From Candidatus Bathyarchaeota archaeon (GTDB lineage: Archaea; Thermoproteota; Bathyarchaeia; Bathyarchaeales; Bathycorpusculaceae), in the NCBI GenBank assembly GCA_903901015.1, contig CAIUPH010000066.1, forward strand, positions 1 to 64,000: a DNA stretch of 64,000 bases, written 5' to 3'. A model generated the notes under the pieces. The model was not told where the DNA came from. It saw nothing but the letters and a program-made list of their open reading frames with translations, and did no database searches. Shown piece after piece: positions 14,285 to 21,849 of this stretch (positions are counted from its first letter, which is position 1; the number at the start of each line of letters is the position of its first letter). The translations under genes and the position numbers were made by a program.

Positions 14285-14701
14285 ATGGACGCTACCATGT
14301 ACATTAAAATTGTTCTAGATGTCCTGGTAGCTGTAGTCATAACCGTAGTTTTGGTCTTCTTGGCGCGGCATGCACGAAAAGAGCAGACTTTCGTCGGATA
14401 CAAGGACAGGTCAACTGATGAAAAATACGTTGGGTACGGGCTTTTTGCGGTGGGCGTAATTTTGATTCTTGTATCGGCTTTTGAGTTGTTTCTGCTCTTA
14501 AACGGCGGGACATATTCTCGAACAGCCTTCAACTTATCCAGCATTTCAATAGGTGGACAGGTGATTTCTGGGCAGGTTTTGAGTTTAAGTTTAGCGGTTG
14601 ATTTCTGGCTTACAATCCTTGGCTATGGGGGAACAAAATTTGCTTCGCTTGGAATGGACATGCTGAAGGGCAAAACGGCAAAAGTGCAGTTCAAAAACTG
14701 A
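14285..14701 (+). CDS. Hypothetical membrane protein, paralogue of upstream gene
   Basis: KYVGYGLFAVGVILILVSAFELF ... ILGYGGTKFASLGMDMLK parallels the upstream ORF. Confidence 0.65.
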   Translation: MDATMYIKIVLDVLVAVVITVVLVFLARHARKEQTFVGYKDRSTDEKYVGYGLFAVGVILILVSAFELFLLLNGGTYSRTAFNLSSISIGGQVISGQVLSLSLAVDFWLTILGYGGTKFASLGMDMLKGKTAKVQFKN

Positions 14702-14965
14702 AAAACCTCGCTGTAGTGATGCTAAGTCCTAAACCAAACAAGACAACTGGCTTTATTGGCAAAAAGGGCATCATCTGCAGGAACTGTTTTTTTCTTTAGT
14801 AGAAGATAATGGCCCCCCTTTTACTCATCATCTACCAGCAGGCTTTTTGAGCAATTGCATTTTTGTGTCTGCCTCTGCTATGGGTTGCAGGCTGGTTGTG
14901 GAGACTTCTACAAGTAGTGCCGAGAACAAAATATACAGAGTTTCCTAAAGCAAAAGTAAAAGTGA

Positions 14966-15011
14966 TTGGTGCGGTCGCCGGGATTTGAACCCGGGATCAT
15001 TAGCTTGGAAG
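14966..15011 (-). repeat. attL: 46-bp direct repeat = 3' half of tRNA-Gly incl. CCA
   Basis: ttggtgcggtcgccgggatttgaacccgggatcattagcttggaag identical to 21289-21334. Confidence 0.95.
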
Positions 15012-15872
15012 AGCAATATTAAGCAAGAAGTAGATTGGAAAGACTTTCACAGTTGGATGCTGAAGACTTGCCGACCAGAACATTGCAGAGTTGTAGTTAC
15101 GCAAGCCAAGAAATACTGCCTATGTTTACTGAATCATGACTTCAGTGAAATAACTATCCTAAAAGAAACGACAAGACCGAACGCAATGAAATCTCTCTCG
15201 GCACTTTCAAAATACCTTGGTATGCATGAAGATTTCAAGTTGCTTGTCAAGAATTACAGTTTGAAGTGGACAGGTAGAAGTGCTGAAGATTTAATTGTTG
15301 ACAGAATTACTAAAGTTCAAAATTCAAATGAAATCTTTGAATGGATAAAACAAGTCAAGCATATTAGACCTGAATTGTGTGAGTTTATGGATTTTATGGC
15401 TATTACTGGATTAAGATTAGTTGAGGCGGTAGCCAGTTATAATCTGATAATTAAGCTAAGCAGAGAAGACAGATTAAACGAGTATTATGTCTATGAAAAA
15501 GGAGTTCTTGAGCATTTTAGGTTCAAAGAGGTTTTCTTTAGAAAAAGCAAAAAAGCTTTCCTCAGTTTTGTCTCAATAGATATGGTGCATAAAATTGGTG
15601 AGAAAAAACCATTTTCAAGTTGTTTTTATGTTCAAAATCTAATCAGAAACAAAGGTAAAGGATTAAAACTACACTTTGGAGACATAAGAGAAGTCAATGG
15701 AACATTGCTTACTAAATATCTGAAAGACAATGAAATCGACTTTTTACATGGTAGAGTAACGAGCAGTGTATTTATGAAAAATTACTTTAACCCTTCATTA
15801 ATTAGTGATTTGAAAGTGAGAGCCTTCAAAGCTTCTGACGAAATAGAAGCTAAAATTCAAGGAAATAGCTAA
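14985..15872 (+). CDS. Archaeal tyrosine integrase, C-terminal catalytic part int(C)
   Basis: AITGLRLVEAV (box I Arg), RKSKKAFLSF (Lys), DIREVNGTLLTKYL, HGRVTSSVFMKNYF (Tyr nucleophile region); frame opens from the att core. Confidence 0.9.
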   Translation: MNPGSLAWKSNIKQEVDWKDFHSWMLKTCRPEHCRVVVTQAKKYCLCLLNHDFSEITILKETTRPNAMKSLSALSKYLGMHEDFKLLVKNYSLKWTGRSAEDLIVDRITKVQNSNEIFEWIKQVKHIRPELCEFMDFMAITGLRLVEAVASYNLIIKLSREDRLNEYYVYEKGVLEHFRFKEVFFRKSKKAFLSFVSIDMVHKIGEKKPFSSCFYVQNLIRNKGKGLKLHFGDIREVNGTLLTKYLKDNEIDFLHGRVTSSVFMKNYFNPSLISDLKVRAFKASDEIEAKIQGNS

Positions 15873-15950
15873 ACAGTTGACTGTGATTTTGGTTGAAAAT
15901 GCATAAATATTCACACTAATTTTATATTCATCTCAAAATAGGTGTATTAA

Positions 15951-16139
15951 TTGGACAATCATCTAAAAGTAAATGTGCGAAAAAAAGAGATTTGGGTGCT
16001 ATGCAAAGAATATCAAAAGTTCACCCGAGAAGGCGGACAAATGACTCCAACGGAATGGAACCAGCAAAATTTAAAAAATTCTCACCAAAAAAATAGGGAA
16101 AAAAGTGAAAAATACCCCTGTTGGTTTAGCGAGTCCTAA
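15951..16139 (+). CDS. Small hypothetical protein of the element
   Basis: 62-aa TTG-start ORF, charged, just downstream of int(C). Confidence 0.35.
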   Translation: MDNHLKVNVRKKEIWVLCKEYQKFTREGGQMTPTEWNQQNLKNSHQKNREKSEKYPCWFSES

Positions 16140-16150
16140 GCCTAAAACTT

Positions 16151-16245
16151 CTTACGATACTTACGATAGTCACTATTTATCTATCCTCTATTTTTTTTAA
16201 AAATTACATTTCTTCTAATATCTTAAGCAGCGTAAGTCGCGTAAG
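16151..16245. repeat. Imperfect inverted repeat of tandem CTTACG/CGTAAG units
   Basis: CTTACGATACTTACG (16151-16165) vs CGTAAGTCGCGTAAG (16231-16245); 13/15 as inverted repeats around an AT-rich spacer. Confidence 0.7.
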
Positions 16246-17565
16246 CTAGTTGAGTCTCTCAATTTTGCGGTTTTTCTTTTCGCCGAACCTACGGATTTGT
16301 TTTTTGCTTTCTAAGGTTTCAGCAATTTTGCGGGCTGTGGCTATAGAACAAGGTGCAGACTTACATAGTGAACCATAGAATTCATTTATGTCAACAGCTT
16401 TGGCGATTTCAAGAATTTCGAGCGCGAGGTGTTCTTTATCGTTTGTGTCGGCGAGATTCCATCTTTCCACAAAGAAATCAAGCATTGATGTCCAAAGTTC
16501 TTTTAACAATTCAAATGCATACTCAACATCTCTTGGTTCAACTTTACTGCGTTCATCAAGCCATGCATGATGTGTCGCGAGCTTAACCATTAGCAAATCT
16601 CTTCTTATTGTGAAACTTTTAAGTCTGTTAACGTATTCAGCGCCTGCACCGAGAAGTATTTCATCTAAAGCCTCCGCCTTTGAACAAATTAACTTCTTAG
16701 TTTCTTCACTGTAGAGGAATTTGTCGATTAGCGGTTTCTTTTTTAAGATTGCCACCAGAGATTGAATATTCGATGATTCATCGATTTCTTCTCCAAGGTT
16801 TGAGATTATCTCGGTTCTGAGAGTTTGATATTCCGAAAAAGCAAAGACCTTGAAAACAGGAATGAATCGTTGTATGAGTCCGCTTCGGGTGACTAAAGTG
16901 CTTATGTTAGCAGGTGGAACAGTCCATAGTGACAGTACGGTTTTGCTTTTGAATTCTGGAATTTCTCCGTCTTTGAGTCGTCTGCTCATTCTGTTGTTTG
17001 TGTCTTGACTTTCGCAAATGTTTCTTAGCAGGTCATTACCCCATTGGTCGGGTTTGCATTCAAGTAGAGAACCTGCTTCTGAGACAGAGAGATAATCCAC
17101 GAGTTCCAAGTCACCTTTCACGGATACTTCTGTTGAGACTTTTTTTCCAGTATCGGGGTTTTCTACCGTTTCTGTTTTTAGCCCGCCCAATGCGCCTGGA
17201 CTTGTTAGCATGCTTCTGCGTTTGACAACATATTTGGGGAAAATACTTGCAACAACTGTCTCAGCAAATTCCATGGCTGGTTTTTTACCCGTGCCTGAAT
17301 CTTGAATTACTAAGAGGCTTGTTCTTAAATCGATATACTCTGCACCATAGTATATTTTCGTTTCCCGAAGAATTATCCCTATCACATTATGCATCGCTGG
17401 CAATGAAAGATGCGAATTCTGTTTACATTTTACAGAGAATCGGTTTTTCCATTGTTCAATGAATTCATCTGCTTTGGAGCCACTAAATGCATTTAGTGAT
17501 GCTTTGTTAGGCGCATCAAGTTTGATTTCAGCAAGACACAACAGACTCTCTAATGTTTCCGACAT
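16246..17565 (-). CDS. DUF3987-like / helicase-like replication ATPase of the element, with C-terminal HTH-like region
   Basis: LRTSLLVIQDSGTGKKPAMEFAETVV degenerate P-loop; ELVDYLSVSEAGSLLE; RNICESQDTNNRMSRRLKDG; start MSETLES at 17565 with GGAG upstream. Confidence 0.55.
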   Translation of the reverse strand: MSETLESLLCLAEIKLDAPNKASLNAFSGSKADEFIEQWKNRFSVKCKQNSHLSLPAMHNVIGIILRETKIYYGAEYIDLRTSLLVIQDSGTGKKPAMEFAETVVASIFPKYVVKRRSMLTSPGALGGLKTETVENPDTGKKVSTEVSVKGDLELVDYLSVSEAGSLLECKPDQWGNDLLRNICESQDTNNRMSRRLKDGEIPEFKSKTVLSLWTVPPANISTLVTRSGLIQRFIPVFKVFAFSEYQTLRTEIISNLGEEIDESSNIQSLVAILKKKPLIDKFLYSEETKKLICSKAEALDEILLGAGAEYVNRLKSFTIRRDLLMVKLATHHAWLDERSKVEPRDVEYAFELLKELWTSMLDFFVERWNLADTNDKEHLALEILEIAKAVDINEFYGSLCKSAPCSIATARKIAETLESKKQIRRFGEKKNRKIERLN

Positions 17566-17737
17566 TTTCTCCTCTCCTTGTTGGAAAATTCTCTTTGATT
17601 TCAAGTTTCATTGTTACAGGACATTTCTTAACGAAGATTAGCCTGTCAACTTTTGTTTTAATTTGAGCTTCAAGCTCTCGCCAGTTGTCTTCATCAAGTT
17701 GAACAATGAAGCCAGCGTTGATTTTATTTTTCTCCAT
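17528..17737 (-). CDS. Small hypothetical protein overlapping the ATPase start
   Basis: 69-aa ORF immediately upstream, translationally coupled arrangement. Confidence 0.5.
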   Translation of the reverse strand: MEKNKINAGFIVQLDEDNWRELEAQIKTKVDRLIFVKKCPVTMKLEIKENFPTRRGENVGNIRESVVSC

Positions 17738-18271
17738 TTTTATTCTATCTCCATTTCATACAGAAGTCACCAGAAGTCAAGCTTTGAAAAGTCAACTCAT
17801 GGTGACCTCTTCATAGATAACATTTTAGTTATGTTCAGGGAGCACATTTACTCCCTTACTATAGTATCAGCCCAGTTTAGAGCATGTGATTGCCTTTCAG
17901 CTTATGAAAATAGACTCCTAAAACAGTGAAAAAGCATCTGTAGAAGAGAAAAACTCTAGATACACGTAAGCAATTCTTTGGAGAAAGAGGTGCTATATCT
18001 CCCTGTACCACTCCGCTCTATAAAATTTGCAATATGACATAGAGCCAAAACATACATAGATTTTAAAAACTCCCTATTTCATCCGTAATTTGTGCAAATG
18101 AATATCAAACCACCTAAAATATCCATAAAAAATACCTTTAAAAAATTAATTTTGAGGGAAATACACAATAGATTCGACAATTATGCATCTACAAAAATCC
18201 AAAGGATTAAAGAATTATCAAGTTGAAAAATTTATAAGAATAGTGGGTTAATTAAGAGATGAGGTTAGATA

Positions 18272-20083
18272 TTGGCTAAGCGTTCTCTTGGCATAATCCT
18301 GATAGCAGTTTTGTGTCTTTCGATTGTTTATAGCTTCAATATTAGCACAGCAACTTCAACTGACTCTTATTTTGACGATTTCAATGGAGCACAACTCTCG
18401 ACAGGATGGAAGGTTGAGAATGGAATAGGAGATTACACTCTTAACAATGGAATAATGACATTGTCTTCCTCTACGTCTAGCGGAGGCGAAGCTGTTACTA
18501 TTTATAGAGATTATATGCCTCAAACTGACGAATTCACTGTTTCGGCTAGAGTAAGTTCTGATAGGTTGGCTGGTTTTGCTTTGAGAATTCAAGCTGGGCC
18601 TCTTCCTATCTTTGGGAGTACACAAGGTGCCCAACTGGAAATTGACAATGGTGTAGAAAACAAAAATTTTATGGCTTCATGGAATGCAGGTAGTTGGACT
18701 TGGACTAATGTTTACAGCCCAGTTGCAACCAATGTTTGGTTTATACTGGAGATGCAAGTTCAAAGGAACCCTTTCACAATCACCTACAACGTTTACAGTG
18801 ATTCAGGAACCTTGCTTGGAACACTTTCAACGAATAACATAGGTTTTAGTTATGACAGCATTAACTACATCTGCTTAGAAGCATGGACAAGTCCGACGGC
18901 TTATAATATTGACTGGGTTAGAGTAGAATCGGCTCTTACACAAACTCCGCTTACACCAATTCCAACTTCAATTTCAACAGGTCCAACAGCTACTTTTATA
19001 CCTACTACAACACCAGTTTTCAATTCTGGAATCACAATTTTTAATTTGAACCCTGCAATATTTATATCAATTTTACTTGCCGCGTTCTTCATTATTTTAC
19101 TGGGCTATCTATTGATTATGGGAGACAAGAAAAAGAATTGGAAATTGTCTAAGGAAAAACTTGCAGAGTTAATAAAAATCAATGGTCGAATTGAATTAGC
19201 AGAAGCTTCCAAAGTGACAGGCGTAAAAGCATCTAAAATTAAGAAGTTATTTTCTGAGTTATTTGACGAAAATTCAGTAGCTCAAGGTTTCTTTGTTAAT
19301 GATGACAAAGAATTCGTTACTGAGTCGCTTCTGGTAAATTGGGTATCGAAAACGGGAAAGTTCAGTTTTGCAGATTTTGGGTTAACTTTTGGTCTCGTGG
19401 AATCTGAGGCTAAAGAGATAATTCAAGATTTGTTTAATGAGAAGAAGCTGAAAGGCGCTTTCACGTTAGATGCACAAGGTTTCGTTACCGAAGATAGACT
19501 TATAGGAGAAATAGGAAAGGACATGCAAAGTTCAAATTCAGAGCATGCGAATTCAAGTAATAATTGGGTCAATAACCCCGAGACAAACCAAAAATCAGAA
19601 ATTAAACCTGAAAATCCTCCTGCAAAATCCGATGAAACTAACTCAAATTCTGATGCCAACTCTAATGCAAAAAATTTACCAAAATTCTCTCTTCTAGAAT
19701 CGGAAGAAATAGAGCTGGAACTTGAAAATGATTGGCAGGTTATTCAACATGGTGAGAGTTTTGAATGGTCAAAGTCCATGTTTCATTTTGAATTATTGAG
19801 AAAACCTTTACTGACAAATAAGCGAATAGTTTTACTAAAGGACAACGAAATAGACTTTGAACTTCCTATTGATTTATTAAATAGTGTTGAAGTTAAGGCA
19901 TTATTTTCAGGAAACTCTTACTTGAAACTTCATTTAAAAAATGGCGATGTGACTTCTTTTATGTTTGTCTGTACAGGTGCAAAAATGTTTTTGGGAACAT
20001 TTTATTTAGCTGGAAAATACCGGACTATACTGAATCAATGGGTAGAGTCTATAAACAGACTGATAATTGCTAAAAAGAATTGA
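18272..20083 (+). CDS. Membrane protein: signal peptide, concanavalin/LamG-like ectodomain, TM helix, cytosolic winged-helix repeats, C-terminal PH/GRAM-like domain
   Basis: MAKRSLGIILIAVLCLSIVYSF; YFDDFNGAQLSTGWKVENGIGDYTLNNGIMTLSS; TM IFISILLAAFFIILLGYLLIMG; wH-like repeats; KPLLTNKRIVLLKDNEIDFELPIDLLNSVEVK. Confidence 0.75.
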   Translation: MAKRSLGIILIAVLCLSIVYSFNISTATSTDSYFDDFNGAQLSTGWKVENGIGDYTLNNGIMTLSSSTSSGGEAVTIYRDYMPQTDEFTVSARVSSDRLAGFALRIQAGPLPIFGSTQGAQLEIDNGVENKNFMASWNAGSWTWTNVYSPVATNVWFILEMQVQRNPFTITYNVYSDSGTLLGTLSTNNIGFSYDSINYICLEAWTSPTAYNIDWVRVESALTQTPLTPIPTSISTGPTATFIPTTTPVFNSGITIFNLNPAIFISILLAAFFIILLGYLLIMGDKKKNWKLSKEKLAELIKINGRIELAEASKVTGVKASKIKKLFSELFDENSVAQGFFVNDDKEFVTESLLVNWVSKTGKFSFADFGLTFGLVESEAKEIIQDLFNEKKLKGAFTLDAQGFVTEDRLIGEIGKDMQSSNSEHANSSNNWVNNPETNQKSEIKPENPPAKSDETNSNSDANSNAKNLPKFSLLESEEIELELENDWQVIQHGESFEWSKSMFHFELLRKPLLTNKRIVLLKDNEIDFELPIDLLNSVEVKALFSGNSYLKLHLKNGDVTSFMFVCTGAKMFLGTFYLAGKYRTILNQWVESINRLIIAKKN

Positions 20084-20973
20084 TTGAGGCGAGAATGATG
20101 AATGTAACTAAATTCAGTGAAGAGGCAGTAAGACTCAATGTCTCAATCCAAGATGTTAGAAGTATTTATGAAAAATCGCTAAGTGACGGAAAGATTAAGG
20201 GTCTAATTGTCCCTAAGAAGGATGAGATTATTCGTTTTAGCGATGAAGAAATAGATGTTTTAGCCACAAAATTAGATGCTGGCAAAGTCTCTCTGGGTAT
20301 TCTTACTACAGAATTAAATTTGATGCCCTACCAAGTACGCACAATTTTTGATTATTTGCTGAAGAAGAACAAAATTAATGGGGTTTTAACTGATGATGAC
20401 ATTTTTATTTCAAATAGTGTTTTAAGGAAAGAAATAATTAATGAAGCCGAAAAAAATGAAAGTATAGACGCGCATGTTCTTTCCAGCAAATTGACTACCA
20501 CTGAGAAATCAATTAACTCAATAATGGATAACTTATCTTATCAAATTTTATCATCTGTTTCAACTTATAGTAAAATAGGATTTGCAGATTTAGCTCGCGA
20601 AGCCAATCTGCCAGAAAACGTAACTAAACTTTTTTTGAAAAAACTTATTCAAGATGAAAAACTCGTTGGACAACTTGACATGGTTAACAATGTTTTAACG
20701 TTGGAAAAAGTGAAACCATCGAGTAGACCAATAGAGGATAATCAGAGCACCCTCTATTCAAGACCTTTAAGTAATCCACCTTCTGATGCGTGGTATATTG
20801 TTCCATTATTTTTTGGTTTTTTGGGTGGTTTGATTAGTTATTTCATTGTTGACAATGATGACCACGGAAAAGCAGTAAATCTATTCTGGTTTGGAGTAAT
20901 AATGTCAGTTATAGATGCCTTAATAGCTTGGGCTTATTGGTCATGGGTTATGTCACTTTTCCATTTTATTTGA
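20080..20973 (+). CDS. Winged-helix-repeat protein with C-terminal TM segments
   Basis: Repeated wH-like blocks (VSLGILTTELNLMPYQVRTIFDYLLKKNKINGVL; IGFADLAREANLPENVTKLFLKKLIQDEKLVG) then two TM helices; 4-bp overlap with upstream gene. Confidence 0.75.
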   Translation: MIEARMMNVTKFSEEAVRLNVSIQDVRSIYEKSLSDGKIKGLIVPKKDEIIRFSDEEIDVLATKLDAGKVSLGILTTELNLMPYQVRTIFDYLLKKNKINGVLTDDDIFISNSVLRKEIINEAEKNESIDAHVLSSKLTTTEKSINSIMDNLSYQILSSVSTYSKIGFADLAREANLPENVTKLFLKKLIQDEKLVGQLDMVNNVLTLEKVKPSSRPIEDNQSTLYSRPLSNPPSDAWYIVPLFFGFLGGLISYFIVDNDDHGKAVNLFWFGVIMSVIDALIAWAYWSWVMSLFHFI

Positions 20974-21022
20974 ACAATATTATTCATTTTGTCTCTGAAA
21001 AGCTTTTTAAGCTCAAAGTATG

Positions 21023-21032
21023 CTTATATTTT
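21023..21032 (+). promoter_or_regulatory. TATA-like box for int(N)
   Basis: CTTATATTTT about 25-30 nt upstream of ATG 21053, preceded by AAGCTTTTTAAGCTC. Confidence 0.5.
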
Positions 21033-21052
21033 AAAATAAGGCTTGAAAATAA

Positions 21053-21334
21053 ATGCTTAGCCTAAAAGAGACAGAATTCCTTAGAAATCCCGAAAACTTC
21101 AACGTCAATTACCAATATTTCTTGAAGCATCAAATAAAAACAAAAGTTAAAGCTTTGTCAAGTGAACTCGAGCTCCTCAGTAATGCAGGATTCTTGAATA
21201 ATCTTAGTGAAAAATCTAAGACTCTTAGAGATTTCAATAAGAATCAAGAAAATGAAAAAAGCTCAAATCAAGCTTCTTTAAGAGAAAGTTGGTGCGGTCG
21301 CCGGGATTTGAACCCGGGATCATTAGCTTGGAAG
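21053..21334 (+). CDS. Archaeal tyrosine integrase, N-terminal part int(N) (ORF reads on into tRNA antisense to 21397)
   Basis: Frame ASLRESWCGRRDLNPGSLAWK continues in frame into int(C) SNIKQEVDWKDFH when the att core is joined. Confidence 0.9.
21289..21334 (-). repeat. attR: 46-bp direct repeat
   Basis: Identical to 14966-15011. Confidence 0.95.
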
Positions 21335-21368
21335 GCTAAAGTCCTAAACCAGACTAGACGACGGCCGC
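21290..21368 (-). tRNA. tRNA-Gly(UCC), CCA encoded
   Basis: RC: GCGGCCG TC GTCT..GGAC T TTAGC CTTCCAA GCTAA TGATC CCGGG TTCAAAT CCCGG CGACCGC A CCA; anticodon TCC. Confidence 0.95.
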
Positions 21369-21546
21369 GCAAGATAAGCCATTATTCCCAGGCTTAATTT
21401 AAGTTTATCTGGGCTAATACCTGATGCGAACGCTGTGTTCTTGTGTGTTGATTAGGTTTTGAGTTTGACAGGTGAAAATTCCTTCTTTGCAGGGAAGCCT
21501 ATATCTTAGTCACGTCACATGGATAAGGTAGTTTAGGTTGGACAAG

Positions 21547-21849
21547 ATGAGCACAGGAAAGGATAGGCATAAAATTCCCGGCAGCCGCATGAAAATATTA
21601 ACAAAAGATGCGAAGCAAATGGTGAATGGACCATACTACTGCCCTAAATGCCGAAAAGAACTGCTGAATATTTGTGTTAACCTTAAAACCAAAGAAGTCT
21701 ACGCCGTGTGCAAATGCGAGCTTGAGTGGCCGTTGACTTACGCGCCTGTTTTTCAACCCGTAGATTACTACAACAAGTTCAGAGATGCATGGAAAAAGCA
21801 AAGCTACGGAATAATCAAGCCACCGTCAGAACCTGTAAAGCAGAAGTAA
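21547..21849 (+). CDS. Elf1-like zinc-ribbon protein
   Basis: YYCPKCRKELLNICVNLKTKEVYAVCKCELEWPLTYAPVFQPVDYYNKFRDAWKK resembles Elf1 layout. Confidence 0.55.
   Translation: MSTGKDRHKIPGSRMKILTKDAKQMVNGPYYCPKCRKELLNICVNLKTKEVYAVCKCELEWPLTYAPVFQPVDYYNKFRDAWKKQSYGIIKPPSEPVKQK

Follow-up and report, generated by a model that had tools for sequence, protein, structure and literature searches.

Suicidal integrases, also called type I or partitioned, are archaeal tyrosine recombinases that carry attP inside their own gene, target tRNA genes, and leave that gene split in two upon integration. Recombination through an attP within the integrase gene has been described for the SSV and pTN3 integrases, suicidal integrases of the SSV, pTN3, and pT26-2 families are recognized by their Phage_integr_3 domain, and a related intact integrase can drive excision (PMC8371274). 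How does an integrase that destroys its own gene persist, and how does it switch targets? The problem is still open, and it has been studied mainly in the Sulfolobales and Thermococcales. Outside these orders, a thaumarchaeal element, NitEve-E3, was described as a single case in Nitrososphaera, likewise cryptic and integrated, in which a split SSV1-like integrase is the only viral gene (PMC6563490); by its description, it can be likened to the element presented here. The window (the whole 64-kb stretch of DNA that was analysed) most probably contains a small mobile element that has integrated into the genome of a Bathyarchaeia archaeon, resembles a plasmid or a satellite, and has split its own integrase gene at tRNA-Gly(UCC). 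We give this reading a probability of about 93%. It agrees with the first-pass annotation, which had proposed a small cryptic plasmid or virus integrated at tRNA-Gly with a split integrase, and it is supported by empty and occupied homologous sites in related genomes.

The tRNA-Gly site and its split integrase

The element is bounded by a perfect direct repeat of 46 bp, found exactly where it had been claimed, with attL at 14966-15011 and attR at 21289-21334. The two copies are spaced 6,323 bp apart, and both are interior to an 82-kb contig (C66) of a 2.05-Mb genome. The sole tRNA detected by ARAGORN in the window is tRNA-Gly(TCC), at 21290-21368 on the minus strand. The right repeat is made of the 3′ half of this tRNA, including its encoded CCA, and ends in the anticodon loop; the earlier reading of it as the 3′ half of an intact tRNA-Gly(UCC) is borne out, with one extra base past the end of the tRNA. 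The target gene is thus restored after integration, while attL is a duplicate of its 3′ half, in frame with the catalytic half of the integrase. The 6,323-bp element has a GC content of 35% vs. 47% in both flanks, and is the lowest-GC 6.3-kb stretch of the window. It is bordered on the left by a gene for a 138-aa protein (14285-14701, plus strand) and on the right by a gene for an Elf1-like zinc ribbon (21538-21849, plus strand), both of which adjoin the same tRNA in two MAGs of the same genus (G048 and G049). A probable relic of a tRNA-Gly 5′ half lies outside the element at 14720-14751 (minus strand; alignment score 40, against a maximum of 37 in 500 shuffles), just past the 138-aa gene, some 215 bp to the left of attL and at the place that corresponds to the start of the tRNA in G048. 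This relic suggests an earlier event at the same site; a tandem duplication was considered as its origin, but inspection by eye shows no evident matching flank.

The catalytic half of the integrase, int(C), occupies 14985-15872 on the plus strand, and consists of attL-derived codons followed by 286 residues encoded from position 15012. The N-terminal half, int(N), lies at 21053-21334 on the same strand and contributes 94 residues to the fused protein. When the sequence upstream of the right repeat is joined in silico to that downstream of the left one, a single open frame of exactly 380 aa results, as anticipated from the two ORFs that share a frame across the core. The int(N) ORF had been described as ending in the right repeat; it does run through the repeat, but in the integrated state its frame continues to 21397, so that the ORF at 21053-21397 encodes 114 aa with a tRNA-coded tail. 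Upstream of the core, the integrase frame of the window is open for 79 codons, whereas the two other frames stay open for 3 and 11. The same control was applied to 17 elements with tRNA repeats, all found by one script: at least 60 open codons precede the core in the integrase frame of 12 of the 17, compared with only 2 of 34 tests of the other frames (Fisher p = 2.7e-6).

The rebuilt protein has the hallmarks of a tyrosine recombinase. In an alignment of 16 sequences (the window and 15 relatives), residues R135, K180, R226, R248, and Y258, numbered from position 15012, are invariant, which agrees with the Arg and the C-terminal Tyr recognized in the first reading. The fused protein matches the integrase family phrog_5127 over residues 75-358, a match that spans the junction (E = 1.9e-8, vs. 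1.9e-6 for int(C) alone), and an AlphaFold model of int(C) (pLDDT 86) matches both an archaeal Xer (4a8e) and the SSV1 integrase (3vcf/3uxu) with a probability of 1.0. The possibility that the fused protein would prove unlike tyrosine recombinases is therefore dismissed. All 16 aligned sequences match PF16795 (Phage_integr_3), the best at 2.5e-11, but the window protein alone reaches 17.5-18.2 of the 27 bits of the Pfam cut-off, so that its family assignment rests on the relatives; the profile search that had been proposed was in this sense successful with PHROGs and short of the threshold with Pfam. Searches of PDB sequences with the fused integrase, the int(C) alignment, or the cargo protein ORF452 returned nothing apart from an autophagy coiled coil, hit by way of the alignment at E = 0.16 and attributed to chance.

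These features allow a scheme to be drawn for the life of the element. Its circular form would carry a complete gene for the tyrosine integrase of about 380 aa, with attP (a copy of the tRNA-Gly(UCC) 3′ half) inside the reading frame. The integrase, which we presume to be active, would recombine attP with the tRNA gene, the crossover probably taking place in or near the anticodon loop. The attP copy would restore the tRNA, and the integrase gene would be cut, leaving int(C) at the left end and int(N) at the right. Excision would then depend on a related element as the source of an intact integrase.

Empty and occupied sites in related genomes

In G048, the 138-aa gene, an uninterrupted tRNA-Gly, and the Elf1-like gene are consecutive, and the site is empty. 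In G049, an independent MAG, a 10.7-kb element with a 49-bp repeat sits in the same tRNA, between the same flanking genes. With both an empty and an occupied version of the homologous site, the repeat cannot be put down to assembly. The contig does come from a MAG, which might prompt the suspicion that an assembly duplication, or a chance repeat, has joined two ORFs; with a clean empty site in G048 and the same architecture recurring in independent MAGs, at the same tRNA as well as at 11 other tRNA species, this explanation keeps a next to negligible probability. The tRNA-Gly sites of related MAGs, which the first-pass annotation had suggested searching, yielded not only the element of G049 but also a third one at tRNA-Gly(TCC) in G055, whose integrase is distant from that of the window. 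Related elements carry tRNA repeats, contrary to a scenario in which relatives would hold the same genes without them.

Is the element still a working entity, or a dead remnant that has been trapped since the ancestor of G049 and the window genome (G000), immobile now and with its integrase halves decaying? The int(N) of the G049 element is indeed frameshifted, and the dS of int(C) between the two genomes (about 1.0) is similar to that of the host neighbour Elf1 (about 0.87), as expected of vertical inheritance. However, both halves are open in the window, and the element is absent from G048. Between the window and G049, the catalytic halves are 74% identical and the int(N) 79% identical over residues 1-57, with a dN/dS of about 0.15 for int(C) and about 0.10 for int(N) over the same 57 residues, rough values as synonymous sites are near saturation (dS of about 1 or above). 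This purifying selection indicates that, for the most part, int(C) and int(N) evolved within functional genes. Moreover, the integrase is the only gene that the two same-site elements have in common. A remnant thus appears improbable for the window, and we retain a mobile element. Some copies in relatives are probably stuck, as shown by decayed halves such as the frameshifted int(N) just mentioned and the int(C) of G163.

Cargo of the window element and of its relatives

Between the two integrase halves, the element carries a cryptic cargo. To the right of int(C) lies a small ORF of 62 aa (15951-16139, plus strand) that has no family match and may not be a gene. It is followed on the minus strand by ORF452 (16246-17604), a 452-aa AAA+-like ATPase and candidate replication helicase, the start of which is overlapped by a 69-aa ORF without match (17528-17737, minus strand). 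ORF452 gives a weak match to AAA_lid_2 (E = 0.0025, under the cut-off). It has a single homologue in the order, in G056, at 25-26% identity, and both proteins contain a Walker-A-like motif. An AlphaFold prediction of ORF452 from two sequences was discarded (pLDDT 38), and no match to ORF452 was found among the phage records. In the scheme outlined above, ORF452 would replicate the circle.

The two remaining genes are on the plus strand. ORF603 (18272-20083, 603 aa) has a signal-like N-terminus, a large outer domain, one hydrophobic segment, and winged-helix-like repeats; residues 375-420 match E3_UFM1_ligase at 25.2 bits, which we take as a winged helix. Its stop is overlapped by ORF297 (20080-20973, 297 aa), which also displays winged-helix-like repeats, with a PCI match at residues 155-209 (E = 1.3e-6), and has a hydrophobic C-terminus. 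ORF603 and ORF297 could be membrane-anchored sensors or regulators. The window cargo has no match to a defence or NCBI family, nor to a structural family in PHROGs, Pfam, or NCBIfam.

Related elements carry other cargo. At tRNA-Val in G149, AbiEi and AbiEii make up nearly the whole cargo of a 3-kb element (L049). The G049 element (L036) encodes a TIR protein along with an REase-like protein, and an element of G051 (L054) a CAP12-type TIR. This cargo looks like antiphage genes. An ATPase (phrog_1979, an nSTAND3-like P-loop protein) recurs in several elements with this type of integrase (L038 in G162, L037, and L051) and is absent from that of the window. Lastly, a 10-kb element at tRNA-Met in G077 (L046, contig C9) carries a major head protein (phrog_544, 1.7e-9), a tape-measure protein, and a D5-type primase-helicase. 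From its gene content, L046 would be a very small provirus or satellite.

The absence of a recognizable capsid gene, claimed for the window element, therefore stands for that element only, since head and tape-measure proteins are encoded by a relative whose integrase belongs to the same family. The G077 element also gives some weight to another reading, according to which the window element is not a plasmid but a provirus or a satellite of a virus, with ORF603 or ORF297 as structural proteins or with packaging by a helper. Satellites of SSV are known, pSSVi for example (PMC8371274). But the lack of any structural match in the window cargo argues against such an identity, as does the lack of any relative in IMG/VR, where int(C), the int(C) alignment, and ORF452 found no match, and we consider it unlikely. 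A small mobile element with cryptic cargo is preferred. What the comparison does bring out is that one type of integrase moves cryptic genes, antiphage-like genes, and capsid-encoding elements alike.

Targets, modules, and known integrase families

Relatives were sought in 165 genomes of the order and in one scan of 85,462 species genomes. They occur mostly in Bathyarchaeia MAGs, with a few in other archaeal MAGs (Culexarchaeota, Wolframiiraptoraceae, and Njordarchaeota). Isolated relatives are found in MAGs labelled as bacteria or Thermoplasmatota and may be binning errors; among them, L081 and L086 are closely related integrases from MAGs that bear the titles Thermodesulfovibrionales and Thermoplasmatota, for which such errors are likelier than transfer. 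Many weak matches of the order-wide search were tRNA genes matching the tRNA-coded peptide (residues 76-100), and these were not counted as integrases. In all, 18 integrated elements with flanking tRNA repeats were gathered (17 from the repeat survey, plus that of G107, which the survey had missed). They range from 3.0 to 13.2 kb and occupy 12 tRNA species by anticodon: Gly(TCC) three times, Gly(CCC), Gly(GCC), Pro, Glu, Ala(CGC) three times, Lys, Met, Val(TAC) twice, Val(CAC), Thr, and Arg(CCT). In 13 of the 18, joining the ends restores an uninterrupted integrase whose N-terminal half is full-length; the rest look mostly frameshifted or truncated.

Unsplit copies were also encountered. G076 encodes an unsplit integrase of 364 aa with an in-frame tRNA-Gly(GCC) core. 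An intact tRNA-Gly(GCC) in this MAG is identical to the core at 48 of 49 positions, and the 3.5 kb inspected around that tRNA contain no integrase gene. By these sequences, attP and attB are found together in one MAG. Integrases with a core resembling the 5′ half of tRNA-Arg(CCT) are present in G040 (L047, contig C27), G039 (L103), and G037 (contig C18), and are unsplit in the first two; as no tRNA-Arg(CCT) gene matching the core was found in these three genomes or their genus, those of G040 and G039 are counted only as possible free forms.

Three forms of the N-terminal half, unrelated to one another, occur in the group: a CcdA-like ribbon-helix-helix (RHH; PF07362, matched by two members at E = 3.1e-7 and 1.1e-4), a module of the CxxC type, and the type seen in the window. 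The RHH form is present at the 3′ end of L041, in L037 (10588-11679), in L043, and in L046; integration would free it as a separate small protein. On the integrase tree, these types change 4 times, between a minimum of 2 and the at least 5 changes of shuffled labels, which points to descent plus exchange of modules. Outside the sister element in G049, the best match of the window int(N) is that of the G055 element at the same tRNA-Gly (score 130, shuffled maximum 54), yet the catalytic halves of the two are only 22% identical. A similar case is the tRNA-Val element of G051 (score 75, shuffled maximum 45; catalytic halves 31% identical). Conversely, the catalytic half in G076 is 54% identical to that of the window, yet its int(N) is of the unrelated RHH form. 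The two halves of the integrase thus appear to be mixed and matched within the group. For pT26-2 integrases, exchange of int(N) and int(C) through inversions has been proposed (PMC8371274). Here, a more tentative idea, to which we give somewhat less than even odds, is that the tRNA core itself serves as a swap joint, through which elements located at the same tRNA site would swap int(N) and int(C). If two elements integrated in tandem at one tRNA, the int(N) of one, the core, and the int(C) of the other would form one open gene, a complete hybrid integrase. If true, this would explain how self-splitting integrases recover excision and switch partner modules and targets.

Where, then, does this integrase stand among those already described? 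It shares with the suicidal integrases an attP within the coding sequence, the fold and catalytic residues of tyrosine recombinases, PF16795 (via its relatives), and a restored tRNA target, which places it in that mechanistic class. The label “SSV-type” holds for the mechanism, since the gene is split, but not for the integrase family. Box II has no KxxR, the position of the K being S, G, P, R, A, N, or C across the 16-sequence alignment (G in the window), and identity is low. By the published criterion, members of the SSV family share 30% identity or more across 60% of the protein (PMC8371274). Among 50,697 phage records, the only named virus matched by the fused integrase is Thermococcus prieurii virus 1, at 25.6% identity with 74% covered (E = 5e-3). 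For these reasons, namely the missing KxxR and the low identity, we do not call it an SSV integrase. The 21.6-kb virus has an SSV1-type integrase, and no further gene was found in common with the window element. Nor is the window element a fusellovirus: with PHROGs and Pfam, no match to a structural family, such as the spindle-virus capsid genes (VP1/VP3), was found in its cargo. No plasmid of PLSDB was matched by the integrase or by ORF452. In the open-access literature, we found no report of split integrases in Bathyarchaeia, and on this scope their novelty is provisional.

Taken together, the comparisons by sequence place the integrase in a Bathyarchaeia-centred group within the Phage_integr_3 superfamily. 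Bathyarchaeia are an abundant class, for which these elements provide natural att sites. The group is also a natural data set, in another lineage, for the problem of self-splitting integrases, with its 18 elements, 12 tRNA species, shifts between 5′ and 3′ halves, and exchanged N-terminal modules. Use of the 5′ half was described as unique to pTN3-like integrases (PMC8371274). As in these integrases of Thermococcales, the 5′ half is used by some relatives (at tRNA-Lys, Met, Arg, Gly-GCC, and Val-CAC), whereas the window element and other relatives use the 3′ half as attB; in total, 13 elements target the 3′ half and 5 the 5′ half. On the integrase tree, the half used shifts 4 or more times (3 once two rows with an unpaired attP and one row on a long branch are removed), which is near the median of 5 obtained with shuffled labels. 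As read from these sequences, the targeting of both tRNA halves within one family extends the known pattern, as does the shuffling of the three N-terminal modules relative to the catalytic half. The group thus differs from the SSV, pTN3, and pT26-2 families by an identity of about 25% or less to the named members found and by a box II without KxxR, as well as by its Bathyarchaeia hosts, its three types of N-terminal module, and its use of both tRNA halves.
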